Shown one piece after another: positions 7,763 through 27,206 of a DNA stretch of 62,524 nt. The notes beneath the pieces were generated by a model. It made no database searches and was not told where the DNA came from. It saw only the letters and a list, made by a program, of their open reading frames with translations. Every line of letters starts with the position of its first letter. The stretch's first letter is position 1. The position numbers were made by a program, and so were the translations under genes. The stretch covers positions 1 through 62,524 of the forward strand of contig JAJFUB010000171.1 of the NCBI GenBank assembly GCA_021372615.1. Reading direction: 5' to 3'. The stretch comes from a bacterium. GTDB taxonomy: Bacteria; Armatimonadota; Zipacnadia; Zipacnadales; UBA11051.

Positions 7763-8260
7763 TCACCGCTTCTTCGGCGTGGGCGCAGACTTCGCCCCGG
7801 TGAGCCGCACCAGGTGGATAAGCGTCTGCTTGCCGGCCAGGTCCTGCTTGATGTCCACCGTGAAGGTCGCGCCGGGAGCCCGCCAGGTCAGGGCCAGGGA
7901 GCGGCCCTCCTTGCTGTCGAGGTTGGTCACCTGCGCGAGGCCGACGTACTTCGCCTGGTAGAACCGAGCCACATCCACGTACGCGTCGCGCGTGGACAGC
8001 TTCACCACGGCGGTAATGCCTCGGGCGTCGCGAACGAGCGAACTCGCCTGTACTGTGGCGCCGGGGTAGAAGAGGATCCCCACTTCCCGGGCGGTGGCGA
8101 CGCCAGGAACGGGCTTGTTGCGCAGGGGATCATCCGGGGCGCGGCTGGGCTCGATGCGGATGTGGCTGGGCTCACCCGTCGCCGGGGGAGCGGGGCGATG
8201 GCAGGACACTGCCAGCAGCAGCAACGGCAGAGCAGTCAGCGGAAGGGACCAACGACGCAC
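7763..8260 (-). CDS. Predicted lipoprotein of unknown function
   Basis: A 165-residue protein starting at the GTG at 8260, which has a GGAG ribosome site 11 bases upstream. An ORF extended to 8458 would overrun the neighbouring gene's stop and is rejected. The N-terminus is basic (VRRW), then hydrophobic, ending in a lipobox LAVSC at about residue 20, so it is probably a lipid-anchored envelope protein. The mature part contains an alpha/beta segment with a FYPGATV stretch and a basic C-terminus. I do not recognise the domain. It follows the polytopic membrane protein by 80 bases and may share its transcript. Confidence 0.7.
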   Translation of the reverse strand: MRRWSLPLTALPLLLLAVSCHRPAPPATGEPSHIRIEPSRAPDDPLRNKPVPGVATAREVGILFYPGATVQASSLVRDARGITAVVKLSTRDAYVDVARFYQAKYVGLAQVTNLDSKEGRSLALTWRAPGATFTVDIKQDLAGKQTLIHLVRLTGAKSAPTPKKR

Positions 8261-8340
8261 GAAGCAATCATCTCCGGAAAGCCAGACAGCGGACGGGGCT
8301 TCTCGTCCGCGGCCATTGTAGCATCTTTGCCGCACGGTGC

Positions 8341-20360: not shown

Positions 20361-20378
20361 CCACGCGACAGCGTCCCC

Positions 20379-20407
20379 TTGCAGACTGACCGACCCTTGT
20401 GTATGCT
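20379..20407 (+). promoter_or_regulatory. Promoter of the E2-RING cluster
   Basis: TTGCAG (20379-20384), 17 bases, TATGCT (20402-20407). Transcription should start near 20414, giving a very short leader that holds the GGAG (20416-20419) used by the ATG at 20428. Confidence 0.65.
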
Positions 20408-20427
20408 TTGTGTCCGGAGTTGTTGCC

Positions 20428-20961
20428 ATGAATGCACGCCTGCGCCGCATCTACAGCGATTACCAGTCCATCCGCGATGAGTTTGCGGGCCATCCCTTCA
20501 TCACCGTCACGCCGGTGCAGGGCGATCCGCCGGAGGAGTACGTGATCGAGTACCGGGTGCGGGGGCTGGAGCTGGACCCGGCCACGAACCGCCCCAAGCC
20601 GCGCGACCGCCACCGCGCGCGCATCTACCTGCACCGCGACTACCCGCGCGAGAAGCCCAAGTGCGTGCTGGAGACGCCGATCTTCCATCCGAACTTCGGC
20701 AGCTACATCTGCATCGGCGACTTCTGGGCCGCCGGGGAGACTCTGGCTGACATCATCATCAAGATCGGCCAGATGATCATGTACCAGGACTACAACCCCA
20801 AGAGCCCGCTGAACGCCGTGGCCGCGCAGTGGGCGACGCAGAACGCCCGCTTCCTGCCGGTGGACAACCGCGACCTGTACCAGCCGGAGATTGACCTGGA
20901 CATCGAACTGCACGACTTCGGGGCCGAGCCCGAAGATGATCTGGACATTCAGTTGGGGTAG
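20428..20961 (+). CDS. Bacterial ubiquitin-conjugating enzyme (E2)-like protein
   Basis: A 177-residue protein with the UBC fold signature. After an N-terminal helix (RLRRIYSDYQSIRDEF) come the sheet strands, then DYPREKPKCVLETPIFHPN with the HPN tripeptide at 87-89, the candidate catalytic Cys95 in SYICIGDFW, Trp100, a WxxGETL-type turn, and the late PLNAVAAQWATQNARF matching the PLN-x-xAA-x(n)-N-x-x-x-F end of eukaryotic E2 domains. HPN to Cys is two residues shorter than in UbcH5-type E2s. A 30-residue acidic tail follows. In the family this Cys carries a thioester-linked ubiquitin-like protein for transfer to lysine. The ATG has GGAG eight bases upstream; an upstream GTG at 20410 overlaps the promoter region and is less likely. 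Two RING proteins follow. Confidence 0.87.
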   Translation: MNARLRRIYSDYQSIRDEFAGHPFITVTPVQGDPPEEYVIEYRVRGLELDPATNRPKPRDRHRARIYLHRDYPREKPKCVLETPIFHPNFGSYICIGDFWAAGETLADIIIKIGQMIMYQDYNPKSPLNAVAAQWATQNARFLPVDNRDLYQPEIDLDIELHDFGAEPEDDLDIQLG

Positions 20962-21079
20962 GAGTTGGGGACTGGGCACTGGGGACCGGGCATCGGGGAC
21001 GGCTGTCCCCAGCCCTCTGGCCACCACGCGCCGATCTCCCAGCCCGGGCCCCTGATCCCTGACCCCCGATCCCTGCCCT

Positions 21080-21886
21080 ATGCGCTGTCCCTATTGCCAA
21101 CAGAACATCCGCGTACAGGGGCGCTTCTGTCCGAAGTGCGGCGAGCAGATATTCGGCCTGCCCGTGCGGCCCCCGGGAGCGCCGCCCGGCACGCCGCCGC
21201 CTGCCAGCACGCCTGCTCCCGCTCCGGCTCCCCGGCCTGCAGCGCCAGCGCCGCCGCCCTATCAGCCCTTCCCCCAGCAGCAGCCGCGCCATGACTATGA
21301 TGACATCCAGGTCGAGGCGGAGCCGGCCGCCGCGCCCGCCCCGGCGGCGCCCTCCGGCGGGGCGCCGGGGGCGCCGCATCAGGCCACGCGCGAGGAAGTC
21401 GGCAAGACCTGTCCGTACTGCCGCTTCCCGATCAAGCCTGATGAGCAGGTCATCGCCTGCCCGGCCTGCAAGCTGCCGCACCATGCCGACTGCTGGACGG
21501 AGAACCGGGGTTGCACGACATACGGCTGCCGGGGCGCGGCCGGGGCGGCGCCCATGCCGACGGGGCCGACGCCGGCCATGCCCTCGACCCTCTCCCCCAC
21601 CGGCGGCCAGGTGCCGGGCCTGGACTACCTGCGCGCTAATGAGCTGACGGCGCGGGCGAACAACGCGTTGTACCTGGCGATCATTGGCCTGTTCTGCCTG
21701 TGCCTTCCCGTGGGGCTCGTGGGGCTCTTCATGGCGCTCGCGGTGCTCGGTGACGTCAACCGGATGCAGTCGCGCGCCGGCGACGCTCGCGGCAAGGCCA
21801 TCGCCGCCATCGTCATCGCCATCGTGGCCGTCGTGGCCTGGGTGGTCTACCTGGTCATTGCCATGGCGCACCCGTCCGGCGGCTAG
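21080..21886 (+). CDS. Membrane-anchored prokaryotic RING-finger protein (zinc ribbon-RING-2TM)
   Basis: A 268-residue protein. It has an N-terminal zinc ribbon (Cys3, 6, 17, 20), a long Pro/Ala linker (about 29-105), and a binuclear RING-type treble clef with Cys111/114, Cys127/130, His134/135, Cys138, Cys145 and Cys150 in the Prok-RING pattern CPYC...CPAC..PHH..CW....GC...GC. A DUF4190-like pair of TM helices follows (about 195-225 and 240-262). RINGs recruit E2s, so this is a candidate E3-like ligase on the inner membrane. It starts 118 bases after the E2-like gene without a clear ribosome site; the gap holds GGGGACTGGGGACC-type repeats. Many Prok-RING proteins have no ubiquitin link, so the E2 neighbour is the key evidence. 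Confidence 0.82.
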   Translation: MRCPYCQQNIRVQGRFCPKCGEQIFGLPVRPPGAPPGTPPPASTPAPAPAPRPAAPAPPPYQPFPQQQPRHDYDDIQVEAEPAAAPAPAAPSGGAPGAPHQATREEVGKTCPYCRFPIKPDEQVIACPACKLPHHADCWTENRGCTTYGCRGAAGAAPMPTGPTPAMPSTLSPTGGQVPGLDYLRANELTARANNALYLAIIGLFCLCLPVGLVGLFMALAVLGDVNRMQSRAGDARGKAIAAIVIAIVAVVAWVVYLVIAMAHPSGG

Positions 21887-21912
21887 CGGCGCGTCGGCCA
21901 GGGGCGGTACAT

Positions 21913-22521
21913 ATGGACGCGGACTCCGAGCTTCGTCCCGGACAGCCCCACTGGACCCTCCCGGTGGAAGCCGGCAGACTGTGCCCCTATTGCCGGTCCC
22001 CGCTGCACGACCATGAGCAAGTGATCGTCTGTCCCTCCTGCCACATTCCCCACCACCTGGAGTGCTGGGTGGACAATGGCCGCTGCACGACGTACGGCTG
22101 CCCGGAGGTGGCGGCACTGGGGCTGCGGCGTTACCTGCTGCGCCCGGCGCCGGAGGGCGGGGCCCTCGAGGTCCGTCTCGAGCCCGAACCTACGCCGCCC
22201 CCCGCGTTCGACTACGCCTTCTACCGCCTGACGCTCTGGTTCTCGCTCATCGCCCTGGTCGGCAACCTGCTGTTGCTGGTCGTGCACGGGTTGCCCATGG
22301 CCGTGACGGGGCAGCCGTTCAGTCTGCTCTTCGGCCTGCTGAGCCTCGCGATGGCCCTGCAACTGCGCCAGTACCTGCGCAGTGAGCCCGGTCAGGCCCT
22401 CGGTGCACCCGAGCGGCGTCGCATGTCCGTGGCCGTCCGTGCAGGCATCGGCCTCGCCCTCGGGCAGTTCGCGCTCAATGCCTGCCTGACTTGGCTGGCG
22501 CTGCTGGGGCCCGCGCAGTAG
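21913..22521 (+). CDS. Second membrane-anchored prokaryotic RING-finger protein
   Basis: A 202-residue protein 26 bases downstream of the first RING gene, with AGGGG eight bases before its ATG. The N-terminal RING (Cys24/27, Cys40/43, His47/48, Cys51, Cys58, Cys63) is nearly superimposable on that of its neighbour, with the same CW and TTYGC ends, but there is no zinc ribbon. Three hydrophobic segments (about 105-125, 135-150, 172-198) replace the DUF4190-like pair. The two RINGs are clearly paralogous while their membrane parts are not. It may form a heteromeric E3-like complex with its neighbour at the membrane, or handle different targets. It converges on the gene ending at 22540. Confidence 0.82.
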   Translation: MDADSELRPGQPHWTLPVEAGRLCPYCRSPLHDHEQVIVCPSCHIPHHLECWVDNGRCTTYGCPEVAALGLRRYLLRPAPEGGALEVRLEPEPTPPPAFDYAFYRLTLWFSLIALVGNLLLLVVHGLPMAVTGQPFSLLFGLLSLAMALQLRQYLRSEPGQALGAPERRRMSVAVRAGIGLALGQFALNACLTWLALLGPAQ

Positions 22522-22539
22522 CGGGGAGAGACGTGCGCC

Positions 22540-25500
22540 CTACAGAACCTCGATCTCCCGCAGCCACAGGATGTTCGGACGGGCCGCGTTGCCGCCGCCG
22601 GGGGCCTGCAGCAGGCGCAGACGACTCGTCTCCACCGGCGGGAAGCTGTGCACGGACATGTCGCGGCCGCCCTGACCGGCCACGGTCGCCACGTCGCGCC
22701 ATGCCCCGTCCACGAAGGCCTGCACCGCGTAGCTGCGCGAGGTCCAGGTGTTCGCCAGATCAATCGCCCAGTAGATGAGCACCGTCTTGAGGGTGACTTC
22801 CTGCGGGAAGGTCAACTCCACCCAGTGCTCCCCCTTGCTGTCCGCGGAGGCCCAGGCGGCCTTGTCCCACGCCACGCCCTCGGTGTCGGTCACGCCATCG
22901 GTGAGGGGCGCCGTCGTGTAGCCGCTGTAACTGCTGTCCGCGGTCACCTGGACCCCCGGCAGCAGCGCCAGGTCGGGGTCGGCTTCGGCCAGGAAGACAT
23001 CGTCGAACCAGGCCGTGCCCGGCTGGTTGCGGTGCAGCAGGTAGAGCGTCGCGTCCTTGACGGGCTTGCTCACATGGATGACCTTCTCGGCGAACTGCCA
23101 CCCCGCAGCGTTGCGGTCGAAGGTCGCGACTTGCCCATATAGAGCGCCCCCGCCCACATAGTGCAGGTCCACGTAGAGCGCGTAGTCGGACGAGCGGGCG
23201 GCGCTCGGGGTCGGCGCCTGCTCCGTCTGGCCGATGGTCATCACCTGCTCGGCGCCGCCCCCTGGCTTCTCATGCTTGCTCCAGCCGCGCAGCACCAGCG
23301 GCCGCGCGACGGTCTGGTTGAGCACGATCGCCTGCACCGCACCGGCGTCGGCGCCGGTGGCCCGGATGGCCTGCTGCCCCCCATGCTTCACCTGCGGGTC
23401 CAGCACGTAGCCGCCCTTGCCGTAGGCGCGCCAGTTGGCAGCCGTCGCGCCCTGCGTTTCCTCAAAGCCCGCGTTCTTGAGCAGGTTCGCGGCCGCAGGC
23501 ATATAGAGTTGGGCATACTGGTGGTCCTGCTCGCCGCCTTCCCAGGACACCTTGACGGTCGTCTCGCGCCAGCCGGTCTGCAGGTCGGCGCCGGCGGTCA
23601 GGACGATCGGCAGCTTCAGCTCCGCTCCCGCCTTCATCTCGACCGTCTCGGTAGTGACCGAGGAGCTGAAGCCCGGCGGGGCGGTCACGGCCACGCGCAC
23701 TGCCAGCGGCCGCTCACGCCGTGTGTTGCGGGCCACGAGCAGCAGCCGACGCACCCGTCCCGTCTCATCCTGCCCCTCGTCCGTCAGTGAGCTTTCGCAG
23801 GGCGAGACCACGGTGTAGGAGGCGTCGCGCTCAAGGCTGAGCGTCTGGCCCCCGGCGACCCGGGCGCGGGCGATTGCGCCGACGCGCTCCCCGCTGCCCA
23901 CGCCCCCCTGGGGGCTGACGACGAACTGCAGCGTCCGCGTCTGGCGCGGCGCCAGGCTGAATGCTCCCGGGCCGAGGCCGCCAGCGGCCAGGCTGACCTG
24001 GACCTCCTGCAGCGCCACGGGCCCGGCCTGGACCGTCACCTGGAACGCCGCCTGCTCGCCCAGCGCGACCTGGCCGCCGCCGGTGAGGGTCATCTGCCAG
24101 CCGGCGAGGATCCCGCCCGCCCGCCGCAGACGACCCGCGCTCGCCTCCAGGGCCGAGGCAATGCCCCCGTAGTCGGGCGTGTCGCGGCGCACACCGGCGA
24201 CCTGCTGATCCAGTTGTCCGGCCTGATTCAGCACCTGCCCGCACAGCGTCGCGTCGGCGGTCCGGGGCGCCGAGGCCGCAAGCTGCCGCAACTGGTCGGC
24301 CCGTTGCTGCAGCGCCGTCGTCAGCTTCTCATCGGCCGCCGACGGCGCGACGGGCGCCACCGGCAGCAGCGTCGTCTGCTTCCCATCGTCGCCCACGGTG
24401 ACGATGCTCGGGTCATCGAACCAGAGCGTGCCTGTGCCCTCGCCCTGGTGGGTGCCGACGAGGGCGAACATGACCGAGGCCGCATTGTCCGGGGCGGTCG
24501 CGTCCAGCTCGATCTGCTGCCAGTCGCCCGTGGCGCTGATCGAGGGGCTATTCACGGCCGGGGTGTCCTTGCCGGCGGCGTCCTTCCAGCGGATGTAGAA
24601 GCTCAGCGACCCCGGTGTCGGAAGTTCGGCCTTGCCCCAGAGCGAGAAATGGACCTTGCGCCCGCCCTTGACGGGCAGGTTGACCGACTGCACCGCGCGG
24701 GCCTTGCCGGCCATCGTCACCCGCGTGGCGCGGGGGGCCGAATGCACCGTCTTGGTGTCGGAGGCGAAGACGACCTCCCCCTCGCGGTACGGAGCGAAGC
24801 CCGTCGGGGTGCCGGTGTCGCCGGGATCGGTCTCGAAGTTGATCGCCACCGTGGGGTTCAGGCGCTCCCGCAGGCGCGACTGCGCGATGGCGCCATAGCG
24901 CGCGGCTTCGCCCAGGTCGAAGGAGGCCAGTTGCTGGTTCGCCGACGCGAAGGCCAGCACGGCCGCCCGTCGCGGCGCCAGGGTCAGGCGTACGCGCGCG
25001 CCGCCCCCTTCGCGCCGGGTGAGGGGCACCGCTGTTCCGTCCACGAGGTTGACTGCGCCGGTGAGGGGCCGCAGCGGCATGCCCTCCAGACGCGGGCCGC
25101 CCTCCGCAGGCCGCGGCGGGGTCGGCGGGTCCACATCGAGGTCGAAGGTGATCGGGGCGCCCTCGCGGGCGGGGTTGTAGGCGACCAGGTGCGGAACCAA
25201 CTTGCCGAAGCGCTCGACGACGATGCTCGGGTCGCTGGCGGCGGCGCCCGTGACCGGCTCCCAGCCGGCCAGCGCCAGCCGCTTGACCAGCGGGGCGTAT
25301 GCGATGAAGAGCGAACGATACTTATTGTACCAGTCGGGCCGCTCCCAGAAGTTGTAGTAGAAGCTGGGGTCCGTGTTGCTGAAGATCATGAACAGGCTGG
25401 GCTCGGCCGCGTACGGCAGGCAGGCGTGCATGTAGTCCACGAGATACGGCGTCAGGTCGCGGTCGAAGCGCTCCTCCAGGCGCGGCTTGTACAGCAGCAC

Positions 25501-27126
25501 CAGGGGCTTGTGGTACATCAGGGCCCGCGCGTAGGTCAGGTAGCTCAGACGGACCGGCGGGCTCTCGATGGAGGGCTCTTGCTCGGAGCCGCCCAGGTCG
25601 AGGTACTGCAGCGAGAAGGGGAACTGCGAGGGGATGCCGTTGGCCATCACGAGCCGCCCGGAGGCATGCATCTTGTCCGCGACCCGCTGCAGAAACTTGT
25701 ACGAGCTGAAGGCCCCGCACAGGATCGGGCGCTTCGTGTCGGGGCTGAAGGTCAGGGGTGCTGAGGCAAACGCGAACTGCTCGGCGGCGTAGTTGTCCAG
25801 CGGCCGCTCATCCACCCCGTCAAAGTAGAACCCATCCAGGAACGAGCCCGGCTTGTTGTAGGTAGCGAGGTCGCGGTCCACCGACGCCATGGTCTCGGTG
25901 CCGGTCGTCGGGCCCTTACCCAGTTGCCCCAGGTCCGGGTCGGCGTTGGCCGGACACATGGCATACCAGCCCAGGTAGCCGGTCTTGTGCGGCGCCCAGT
26001 GGGCCTGACCGACGGTGTATTGCAGCCCGCCCTGGGCGTTGCGCCCGGCGCAGTTCATGATGATCTGGGCGGCCTTGCGCGTGGCGGGGTTGTCGGACTT
26101 GAGGTCCTCGGCCAGCTTCTGCTGCACGAACTCCGGCGTCGGCTTCTCCTGCCGCTCGGGCATCCACAGCATGGCCCAGTGCGGGGAGATGTAGCGGAAG
26201 CTGTAGATCCCGTGGGCCTCGTCCCACGGGATGTTCGAGGCGCCCTCCTGGAAGGCGAAGTTGAAGTCCTCGGGGTCCTGCACCCTGGCGATGTCGGTGA
26301 AGGGCATCCAGAGGCCTTCCTTCTCGCTCCGGCGCGCGAAAGCCTCGGGGAAGAGGGCGTAGTAGGCGGCCGTAGCCGCGCGGAAGCCCTGCCGCGCGCC
26401 GGCGACGGTGCGCGCGTCGGGGGTGTAGATGACAAGCGAGAAGTCAGCCCGCGAGGGGAAGGCCTTCGTCAGCGGGCTAAGGCCGAAGTCGAAGTCCAGC
26501 GTGAAGCACTGCGCAGCCCCGTCGTAGGCGAGGCGGTGCACGACGAAGCGGTCCATCGGCACGCCGAGGCACAGTTCCCCCGGCGCGGCCGAGATCGCGC
26601 CCCAGGGGAAGGCCGAGGTGTTCCCGGTGGCCCCGACGCCGGTGTGGTGCAGGTTGGCATAGCTCCCACCGGCAATGGGCTCCTGGTTGAGGAGGTCCTG
26701 CCACCACACGCCGCCGGCCGCCTGGACCGGCAGGGCGAAGCGCACGGTGATCGCGCGGTCCTGGCCCGACAGGTCGTGTACGAAGCCCTGCACTTCCACG
26801 GCGCCGGGGCGGGCGCGGTAGGTGGCCGCGAAGTCCAGCTTGAGCGCGGCGTTCGTGCCGGCCTGGCGCAGCCCACCCTCGGCGGTCGCGACCGCGCCAC
26901 CGGCCGCCACGAACTGCCCGTCAGCGGCCGCGTCGCGCAGGAGCAAGCCGGACAGCGCCCCCTGCGTCAGTGGCCAGGGCTTGTCGCCCACAGAGAGACT
27001 GGTCACGGCACCGTCGGGCCCGAGGCCCAACTTCAGCCCTCCCGAGGCGATGAGCTGCTGCGCCTGGGCAGGCAGGGCTACCACTATCAGCAGCCCGAAA
27101 GCTGCCAGGAGCTGTTGCGTCTTCAT
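22540..27126 (-). CDS. Very large secreted protein with C-terminal discoidin domain
   Basis: A 1528-residue exported protein, probably acting on polysaccharide. The ATG at 27126 has GGAGG eight bases upstream and starts a signal peptide (MKTQQLLAAFGLLIVVALPAQA). The first ~750 residues form a large glycoside-hydrolase-like region (YDGAAQCFTLDF, EEAHGIYSFRYISPHWAMLW, DGFYFDGVDE) that I cannot assign to a family. Then comes a carbohydrate-binding-like beta-sandwich (about 770-890, ending WFDDPSIV), an NPCBM/alpha-sandwich-rich stretch, a second WFDDVFLAE sandwich and a C-terminal F5/8 type C (discoidin) domain over the last ~140 residues. It is the last gene of a minus-strand run with MurQ/GKRP-like and GH20 genes. 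Confidence 0.8.
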   Translation of the reverse strand: MKTQQLLAAFGLLIVVALPAQAQQLIASGGLKLGLGPDGAVTSLSVGDKPWPLTQGALSGLLLRDAAADGQFVAAGGAVATAEGGLRQAGTNAALKLDFAATYRARPGAVEVQGFVHDLSGQDRAITVRFALPVQAAGGVWWQDLLNQEPIAGGSYANLHHTGVGATGNTSAFPWGAISAAPGELCLGVPMDRFVVHRLAYDGAAQCFTLDFDFGLSPLTKAFPSRADFSLVIYTPDARTVAGARQGFRAATAAYYALFPEAFARRSEKEGLWMPFTDIARVQDPEDFNFAFQEGASNIPWDEAHGIYSFRYISPHWAMLWMPERQEKPTPEFVQQKLAEDLKSDNPATRKAAQIIMNCAGRNAQGGLQYTVGQAHWAPHKTGYLGWYAMCPANADPDLGQLGKGPTTGTETMASVDRDLATYNKPGSFLDGFYFDGVDERPLDNYAAEQFAFASAPLTFSPDTKRPILCGAFSSYKFLQRVADKMHASGRLVMANGIPSQFPFSLQYLDLGGSEQEPSIESPPVRLSYLTYARALMYHKPLVLLYKPRLEERFDRDLTPYLVDYMHACLPYAAEPSLFMIFSNTDPSFYYNFWERPDWYNKYRSLFIAYAPLVKRLALAGWEPVTGAAASDPSIVVERFGKLVPHLVAYNPAREGAPITFDLDVDPPTPPRPAEGGPRLEGMPLRPLTGAVNLVDGTAVPLTRREGGGARVRLTLAPRRAAVLAFASANQQLASFDLGEAARYGAIAQSRLRERLNPTVAINFETDPGDTGTPTGFAPYREGEVVFASDTKTVHSAPRATRVTMAGKARAVQSVNLPVKGGRKVHFSLWGKAELPTPGSLSFYIRWKDAAGKDTPAVNSPSISATGDWQQIELDATAPDNAASVMFALVGTHQGEGTGTLWFDDPSIVTVGDDGKQTTLLPVAPVAPSAADEKLTTALQQRADQLRQLAASAPRTADATLCGQVLNQAGQLDQQVAGVRRDTPDYGGIASALEASAGRLRRAGGILAGWQMTLTGGGQVALGEQAAFQVTVQAGPVALQEVQVSLAAGGLGPGAFSLAPRQTRTLQFVVSPQGGVGSGERVGAIARARVAGGQTLSLERDASYTVVSPCESSLTDEGQDETGRVRRLLLVARNTRRERPLAVRVAVTAPPGFSSSVTTETVEMKAGAELKLPIVLTAGADLQTGWRETTVKVSWEGGEQDHQYAQLYMPAAANLLKNAGFEETQGATAANWRAYGKGGYVLDPQVKHGGQQAIRATGADAGAVQAIVLNQTVARPLVLRGWSKHEKPGGGAEQVMTIGQTEQAPTPSAARSSDYALYVDLHYVGGGALYGQVATFDRNAAGWQFAEKVIHVSKPVKDATLYLLHRNQPGTAWFDDVFLAEADPDLALLPGVQVTADSSYSGYTTAPLTDGVTDTEGVAWDKAAWASADSKGEHWVELTFPQEVTLKTVLIYWAIDLANTWTSRSYAVQAFVDGAWRDVATVAGQGGRDMSVHSFPPVETSRLRLLQAPGGGNAARPNILWLREIEVL

Positions 27127-27155
27127 GGGTTCACCCTCCGACCAAGTCACTCCGC

Positions 27156-27181
27156 GTGGGCGGGTTCGTCCTCCAACCCGC
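27156..27181. repeat. Single REP-like hairpin
   Basis: GTGG followed by GCGGGTT-CGTCCTCC-AACCCGC (27160-27181). The arms match those of the hairpins at 20310-20331, although the loop is longer. It lies between the GH20 gene and the large secreted protein. Confidence 0.55.
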
Positions 27182-27206
27182 ATGGCTCACCGGCACACCG
27201 CGCGCG

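Follow-up and report, generated by a model that had tools for sequence, protein, structure and literature searches.

A candidate membrane-associated ubiquitin-like conjugation system of Armatimonadota, split over two loci and sharing an acidic tail motif

Introduction

In 2011, Burroughs, Iyer and Aravind reportedly predicted in Mol. BioSyst. RING-bearing prokaryotic systems of the E1–E2–Ubl–JAB–RING type (Ubl, ubiquitin-like protein) with YukD-like modifiers, in which E1, E2, JAB, RING and YukD-like modifier are reportedly encoded together. Here we analyse an E2 gene and two RING genes (RING1 and RING2) in a 62,524-nucleotide stretch of DNA, hereafter the window, from a Zipacnadales genome of the phylum Armatimonadota (GenBank assembly GCA_021372615.1, contig JAJFUB010000171.1). 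The parts we find are of the same kinds as in those systems; the present system is spread over two loci and comprises a pair of E2s, a membrane trypsin and a tail motif common to several parts. In our judgement, these genes likely form the E2/E3 half of an Armatimonadota system for membrane-associated conjugation of a ubiquitin-like modifier, divided here between two loci. The kind of system was predicted earlier; the division over two loci and a largely class-specific tail motif would mark the present variant.

According to excerpts of the respective papers, bacterial operons with E1, E2, JAB and ubiquitin-like genes were predicted in 2006 (PMC1779556), and an E1/E2/small-RING cascade of Caldiarchaeum subterraneum has been reconstituted in vitro, with complete operons in some bacteria also noted (PMC5654768). 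Like the present system, the Caldiarchaeum subterraneum cluster has genes for a Ubl, an E1, an E2, a RING E3 and a JAMM peptidase; unlike it, the cluster is archaeal and a JAMM protease exposes the di-glycine of its modifier, and the excerpt mentions no membrane RINGs, trypsin or tail motif (PMC5654768). Within the literature searched, and as far as that excerpt goes, the sole RING-bearing prokaryotic Ubl cascade reconstituted biochemically is archaeal. The Bil and Bub operons resemble the present system in combining a bacterial E1, E2, modifier and peptidase, and RING genes are not named for them in the excerpts available (PMC13373217, PMC12687455). A PADLOC search, run without Bub models, returned only general E1, JAB and protease matches, apart from a BilD row to which the E1 scored weakly (22.5 bits). 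The Armatimonadota genome paper that names Zipacnadia does not mention ubiquitin in its main text (PMC10290634).

Results

The window encodes an E2 with a UBC fold

The E2 protein passed the curated Pfam cut-off for UQ_con (33.8 bits against 27), and its AlphaFold2 (AF2) model, with a mean predicted local distance difference test score (pLDDT) of 83.6, matched the E2 enzyme 6mj9 in VIA (Z 14.2, root-mean-square deviation 2.6, 127 residues aligned) and E2 enzymes in Foldseek (E 4.6e-8). The tail, residues 157–177, was modelled at a pLDDT below 50. H87, P88, N89, C95 and W100 are invariant in all 13 aligned E2s, and in the profile of these sequences Cys95 pairs with the cysteine of the HPN...C stretch of yeast Ubc4, which we take to be catalytic. 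An earlier note on this DNA, made from the sequence alone, had proposed an E2-fold protein with HPN at residues 87–89, a candidate Cys95 and Trp100, and had named structure prediction and the position of Cys95 as checks; family match, fold and cysteine position all came out as proposed. No PADLOC or NCBIfam family matched the E2, RING1 or RING2, and on that ground an assignment to a defence system was dropped. A viral origin of the E2 was likewise dropped, as a pattern scan of viral contigs gave no E2 relative.

The remaining parts lie on a second contig of the same genome

Besides the E2 of the window, the genome (6.41 Mb, 171 contigs) encodes a second, and no further, E2 on a contig that we call C11 (our handles for contigs, genomes and loci begin with C, G and L). 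The C11 locus runs in the order second E2, trypsin, YukD-type modifier, ThiF-type E1, JAB, second JAB and TPR protein, with Pfam matches to UQ_con, Trypsin_2, YukD (54.1 bits), ThiF (180 bits), JAB in two proteins, and TPR. The modifier, a YukD-type ubiquitin-like protein, ends PEITAG. The trypsin has a signal-like N-terminus and a membrane segment, the first JAB also has a membrane segment, and the TPR protein has one hydrophobic segment. In this genome the parts do not all stand in one operon, the window and C11 loci being separate. The earlier note had called a minimal E2 plus two membrane RINGs an unusual arrangement; with E1, modifier and JABs on C11, and with several relatives that carry all parts in one gene run, the stand-alone minimal module had to be given up.

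An FHA/membrane protein that stands beside RING1 in G001 has just general FHA-domain matches in the window's genome. As a separate observation, FHA-type matches are clustered in genome G000, with three at 128.5–130.4 kb and one at 133 kb on C13 and two on C68.

Relatives carry the E2 and RING genes with the other parts

Relatives were found in named genomes that include Candidatus Zipacnadia, WS1 and Armatimonadetes, and the E2 is present in 30 of the 61 genomes searched (the window's own included) and in 48 of 291 genomes of the phylum. Prok-RING_1 matches above the cut-off occur in 46 of the 291, and 34 genomes have both (odds ratio 47, p 3.6e-23), which bears out the co-occurrence of E2 and RING genes that the earlier note had asked about. 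Each of the seven family genomes gave two or more E2 matches, of which one lies closer to the window E2 and another closer to the second E2.

Trypsin, modifier, E1, JAB, E2a (the E2 set to which the window's belongs) and RING stand together in 13 of 54 stretches examined, many of the other stretches being cut by contig ends or missing parts. The genes usually run trypsin, modifier, E1, JAB, JAB, E2, RING, followed by a third JAB (as in L032, L034 and L036–L038). A gene run that ends E2–RING starts with the second E2 in G002 and G006, with both E2s in one locus. Among 33 loci with E2a matches of at least 180 bits, weaker matches having been dropped prior to counting, a RING gene lies directly downstream of E2a in 21 (window included) and directly upstream in 3, and a JAB gene lies directly upstream in 24. 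Set against these loci, the window holds an E2–RING piece apart from the remainder.

The split is not confined to this genome. In G016, contig C2 carries an E2–RING–JAB locus 108 kb from where it could be cut off by a contig end, with the E1 on contig C13, so the idea of a split unique to the window's genome was dropped; G001, G003, G017, G020 and G283 also have the E1 on a different contig from E2a, with a contig end close in most. This is a draft genome, and a misassembly could still lie behind the split. In G001 the E2 and the HAD gene that neighbours it in the window sit on separate contigs, so the window neighbourhood is not shared there.

Two further loci stood out for their gene contents. 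At L025:3380-7948 (G004, contig C266), a 1522-residue frame combines a P-loop-like stretch, many WD40 repeats and, at its C-terminus, a window-type E2 domain. This layout is NLR/APAF-1-like, and the E2 might possibly be its effector; the next gene (8109-12779) encodes another large WD40 protein. At L043:5728-6870 (G028), an AAA_21 ATPase gene sits within the conjugation run, between E1 and JAB genes.

Residue signatures fit activation, conjugation and removal of a modifier

We examined residue signatures in loci of one class, comprising those of the window's order together with G047 and L053–L057, with L051, L052 and L058–L071 left out. EITAG is present in 22 of 22 modifiers of this class, 13 of which end there and 9 of which have one to six extra residues. 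The JAMM pattern occurs in 67 of 68 JAB proteins, HPN followed by five residues and a cysteine in 31 of 35 E2a frames, and NSGGP in 17 of 20 trypsin frames, the others being L032, L050 and the cut L041. In 24 E1s, Cys193 and cysteines 312, 315, 335 and 338 are each conserved in all but at most one, and Cys193 would be the catalytic cysteine. Judged by the named enzyme families, these signatures fit modifier activation, conjugation and removal.

An acidic tail motif is shared by unrelated proteins of the system

An acidic motif with alternating hydrophobic residues (DDLDIEL-like) recurs in the tails of E2, trypsin, E1, JAB, RING and TPR/FHA proteins. It stands at the C-terminus of the trypsins (DLSDIDIELR and alike), not far from the start of E1, JAB and TPR proteins, within the RING1 linker and in FHA/membrane proteins, and its spacing to the C-terminus is equal in most E2 and trypsin ends. 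By a strict rule, 86 of 197 system proteins carry it, compared with 3 of 152 genes more than 1.5 kb off and 7 of 101 nearer genes; shuffled system proteins gave 4.9 against the 86 observed. Five of the seven motif-bearing nearer genes encode FHA/membrane proteins (L020 and L048 by Pfam, the others by resemblance).

In a leave-one-family-out analysis, each family was scored with a matrix trained without it, at a threshold set to the 99th percentile of 229 background proteins; the system set was taken without L051, L052 and L058–L071, and the background without 148 genes within 1.5 kb of system genes. The matrix recovered E2a in 31/35, trypsin in 14/20, E1 in 11/26, JAB in 17/68, RING in 16/39 and TPR in 2/4, and recovered neither E2b (0/10) nor the modifier (0/22), while shuffles gave 0 to 1.2. 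These rows are not independent events because related genomes are among them.

On 19 further, held-out loci, the strict rule found the motif in 8 of 80 system proteins and 2 of 77 background proteins (p 0.099), and in 3 of 47 nearby genes. On this result a motif general to all E2/JAB systems of the phylum was dropped. The trained matrix matched 13/80 against 6/77 (p 0.023; shuffled tails 3.9), and 5/58 when L053 and L054 were taken out (p 0.19; shuffled tails 2.0). All 13 matches fall in L053–L057, where the modifiers, found on all but L055, end EITAG or EITAG plus six residues; none falls in L058–L071, where either no modifier turned up or it was of another type. Of the held-out loci, L053 repeats a contig of the earlier set (L018), which leaves L054–L057 as the fresh motif-bearing loci, and several of L020–L052 are contigs also contained in L009–L019, from which the idea of the motif came. 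Exceptions run in both directions: L051 (G042), whose modifier is of another type, carries a single strict copy in a Ubl–E2 fusion, and L050 has an EITAG modifier yet scores 0/8 by the strict rule. Relaxed copies can be seen by eye in L050, L055 and L056, and strict copies are absent from L050 and L055–L057. With the held-out matches confined to L053–L057 and one strict copy in L051, we assign the motif chiefly to a single class, that of systems with a modifier ending EITAG; this restriction is a post hoc reading, made after the held-out result. The fusion in L051 (4289-5212) joins a YukD-type modifier (22.8 bits, below the cut-off of 27) to an E2 (34.1 bits) in a 307-residue frame with a motif-like tail.

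SUMO-interacting motifs (SIMs) have acidic flanks, and by analogy with them we propose that the tail motif is a docking tag for the modifier. In the excerpt available, SIMs are short linear stretches that engage a Ubl groove and are used by E3s and effectors, and peptides occupy the hydrophobic groove of SUMO at least partly as a beta-strand (PMC12687455). The present motif differs in occurring in several unrelated families of one bacterial system, and its binding is putative. That the modifier never carries the motif fits the modifier as receptor, but E2b lacks it in every case too. Common descent of the whole system would also explain why the motif co-occurs in its parts. A literature search of open-licence papers with a combined-term query found no bacterial tail motif of the DDLDIEL-like kind.

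RING1 and RING2 carry RING/PHD-like domains followed by hydrophobic segments

RING1 and RING2 exceed the Pfam cut-off of 29.1 bits for Prok-RING_1 (PF14446) with 37.2 and 40.1 bits, and they are the genome's only two matches to this family. The Pfam note on Prok-RING_1 reportedly mentions neighbourhoods of the E1–E2–Ubl–JAB–RING type and transmembrane helices. The domains are of the C4HC3 kind, with the last two cysteines four residues apart, and an alignment of 13 RING domains shows no variation at C5, C8, C21, C24, H29, C32, C39 and C44. The earlier note had described full C2-C2-HH-C-C-C sets; the eight zinc-ligand positions agree with this, but the first H of 'HH' varies among the 13 domains. 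It had also described both RING fingers as membrane-anchored, and hydropathy places hydrophobic segments C-terminal to the RING domain in both proteins, which makes membrane attachment plausible. In RING1, matches to DUF4190 and CD225 below their Pfam cut-offs would fit a hairpin plus one transmembrane helix, and by the positive-inside rule of membrane protein topology the RING side of RING2 would be cytosolic.

The structural searches with the RING domain were divided. A sequence search returned a weak mixture of PHD and RING chains (best E 0.014), the top Foldseek rows for the model were PHD fingers (E 0.043), and the two best VIA rows were an E3 RING bound to UbcH5b~Ub, at Z 5.5 and 5.3, where a Z below 8 may mean merely a common arrangement. 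As Foldseek favours PHD fingers and VIA favours an E3 RING, the fold class is RING/PHD-like and is not settled by structure alone.

The N-terminal zinc-ribbon-like stretch of RING1 scored below the Pfam cut-off for a zinc ribbon. A zinc-ribbon pattern matched 24 of 37 RING proteins; because this pattern also fits a RING at the N-terminus, the first 60 residues were read instead for L053 and L054, and no separate N-terminal zinc ribbon was found there at the start of six motif-bearing RING proteins. RING2 has no close orthologue in six family genomes: its best match by E-value is 39% identical over residues 20–112, its highest identity is 56% over 63 residues, and several of its matches are RING1 genes. 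The RING1–RING2 pair is therefore not the conserved unit, and the idea of a conserved RING pair was abandoned.

Arrangement of the genes in the window

The three genes are consecutive on the plus strand, as the earlier note had it (Table 1), with a gap of 118 bp before RING1 and one of 26 bp before RING2. The same note had suggested a single unit from the few bases between the RING genes and from one promoter, TTGCAG-17-TATGCT, which matches 7 of 12 consensus positions. This is at chance level, as 303 plus-strand sites in the window (4.8 per kb) are equal or better and a consensus promoter scan of 19600–22700 gave no site, and the argument for a single unit from a shared promoter was dropped accordingly. 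The start at 20379 belongs to that claimed promoter, not to the E2 gene.

Other parts of the window showed features of their own. SecA (1280 residues, 12548–16390) has a lysine/arginine-rich stretch near residues 519–527, outside its DEAD and P-loop matches, with a motif-like ETIDVTL after it. Downstream of secA, at 16390–16480, repetitive translations point to a short repeated stretch (GIGDWGLGIGDWGLGI and similar). A minus-strand gene at 22540–27183 encodes 1547 residues and has many partial matches in family genomes (28 in G004, 25 in G001).

Table 1. Positions in the window of the E2, RING1 and RING2 genes and of features within them
Feature	Position	Strand	Basis
E2 (UBC-fold) gene, 177 aa	20428..20961	+	Pfam UQ_con, AF2, VIA, invariant residues
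First acidic alternating-hydrophobic motif in E2 tail (IDLDIEL)	20890..20910	+	Low-pLDDT tail
C-terminal motif copy in E2 (DDLDIQLG, protein end)	20935..20958	+	Comparable ends in most relatives
RING1: N-terminal zinc-ribbon-like stretch, linker with motif, Prok-RING_1 domain, hydrophobic segments	21080..21886	+	Pfam, hydropathy
Motif in RING1 linker (DYDDIQVEAEPAA)	21293..21331	+	Motif scan
RING1 domain, C4HC3	21398..21529	+	41.4 bits; alignment; AF2 pLDDT 90.8
RING1 hydrophobic stretch 1 (possible re-entrant hairpin)	21674..21766	+	Hydropathy; sub-threshold DUF4190, CD225
RING1 hydrophobic stretch 2 (likely transmembrane)	21809..21865	+	Hydropathy
RING2: RING domain, then three hydrophobic segments	21913..22521	+	Pfam, hydropathy
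RING2 domain, C4HC3	21973..22098	+	42.8 bits; alignment
Motif-like ALEVRLEPE between RING2 domain and membrane part	22162..22188	+	Read from sequence; fails strict rule, not counted as motif

Discussion

Computation yields the parts of the system, the E2 fold, the linkage, the split, and the tail motif with its limits. From these we infer the chemistry, the contact between RING and E2, the topology, the receptor of the motif and the substrates. The C11 E1 would adenylate the C-terminal glycine of the YukD-type modifier (...PEITAG) and hand the modifier by thioester to Cys95 of the window E2, or to the second E2. RING1 and RING2 would sit in the inner membrane, their RING domains facing the cytosol, and would engage the E2 once it is charged, helping the modifier onto proteins at or near the membrane. 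The JABs, one with a membrane segment, would trim extended precursors where present and remove the modifier, and the membrane trypsin, whose protease domain would face outward, may tie events at the envelope to the pathway. What probably holds the parts together is the shared acidic tail motif, most simply through binding of the modifier. The fuller picture of a transmembrane Ubl machine, in which E1, E2, E3, peptidases and an outward protease are gathered on the modifier by one motif in their cytosolic tails, is one that we put forward tentatively.

Several findings weigh against a single membrane-associated pathway of this kind. No E1, modifier or JAB stands beside the window E2, so the pathway would need to run between two loci, and the modifier terminates in a single glycine (TAG), not a di-glycine. 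Twelve of the 46 genomes with an over-cut-off Prok-RING_1 match have no E2, and 14 of the 48 E2 genomes have no such match. The structural matches of the RING domain are weak (Z below 8) and include PHD fingers, and a narrow pattern for the trypsin histidine region fits only 6 of 20 frames. For the motif, the held-out test by the strict rule stayed at p 0.099.

The alternative that fares best concerns the receptor: the motif may bind another hub, for instance an FHA/TPR membrane partner or a protease, instead of the modifier, which we regard as a serious possibility, a little short of even. The motif also ends the trypsin tail, operon partners vary, and the E2b count means that the modifier is not the sole part without it; on the other side, the modifier's 0/22 is what would be expected of a receptor. 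Because the six motif-bearing RING proteins of L053 and L054 have no N-terminal ribbon, the zinc ribbon of RING1 is itself unlikely to be the hub.

Prok-RING_1 proteins could also be membrane adaptors or sensors, PHD- or C1-like peptide binders that recruit an E2 able to transfer the modifier without an E3. The PHD fingers at the top of the Foldseek rows, the mixed sequence search and the RING genomes without an E2 are what one would expect of such proteins, but the two best VIA rows show an E3 RING complexed with E2~Ub and a RING gene adjoins E2a in 24 of 33 loci, and we think this reading unlikely.

Less probable again is that the window genes are a decaying or misplaced remnant and that the C11 locus works alone with its own E2. 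A locus without E1, modifier or JAB, a RING2 without a close orthologue in the six family genomes and an FHA/membrane partner with only general FHA-domain matches in this genome would suit a remnant; against this, the active-site and zinc residues are intact, the genome's only Prok-RING_1 proteins sit in the window, all seven family genomes keep an E2 match nearer each of the two E2s, both E2s share one locus in G002 and G006, and the G016 E2–RING–JAB locus likewise lies apart from its E1. Least probable, and in our view very doubtful, is that the motif is a by-product of acidic low-complexity tails in GC-rich genomes: in its favour, the tails are acidic, that of the E2 model is disordered, the test on held-out loci of all classes fell short of significance, and the tails of 6 of 77 held-out background proteins exceed the matrix threshold; against it stand the shuffles of the same proteins (4.9 where 86 are observed), a C-terminal spacing that is constant in most E2 and trypsin ends, and the leave-one-family-out counts.

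The membrane-associated conjugation system that we favour bears on the origin of E1–E2–RING cascades and of docking motifs. If this reading is true, the shared motif would provide a direct handle on the assembly of such a cascade at the membrane, and its docking code would be a bacterial counterpart of the SUMO/SIM pair, reached by unrelated families within one pathway.

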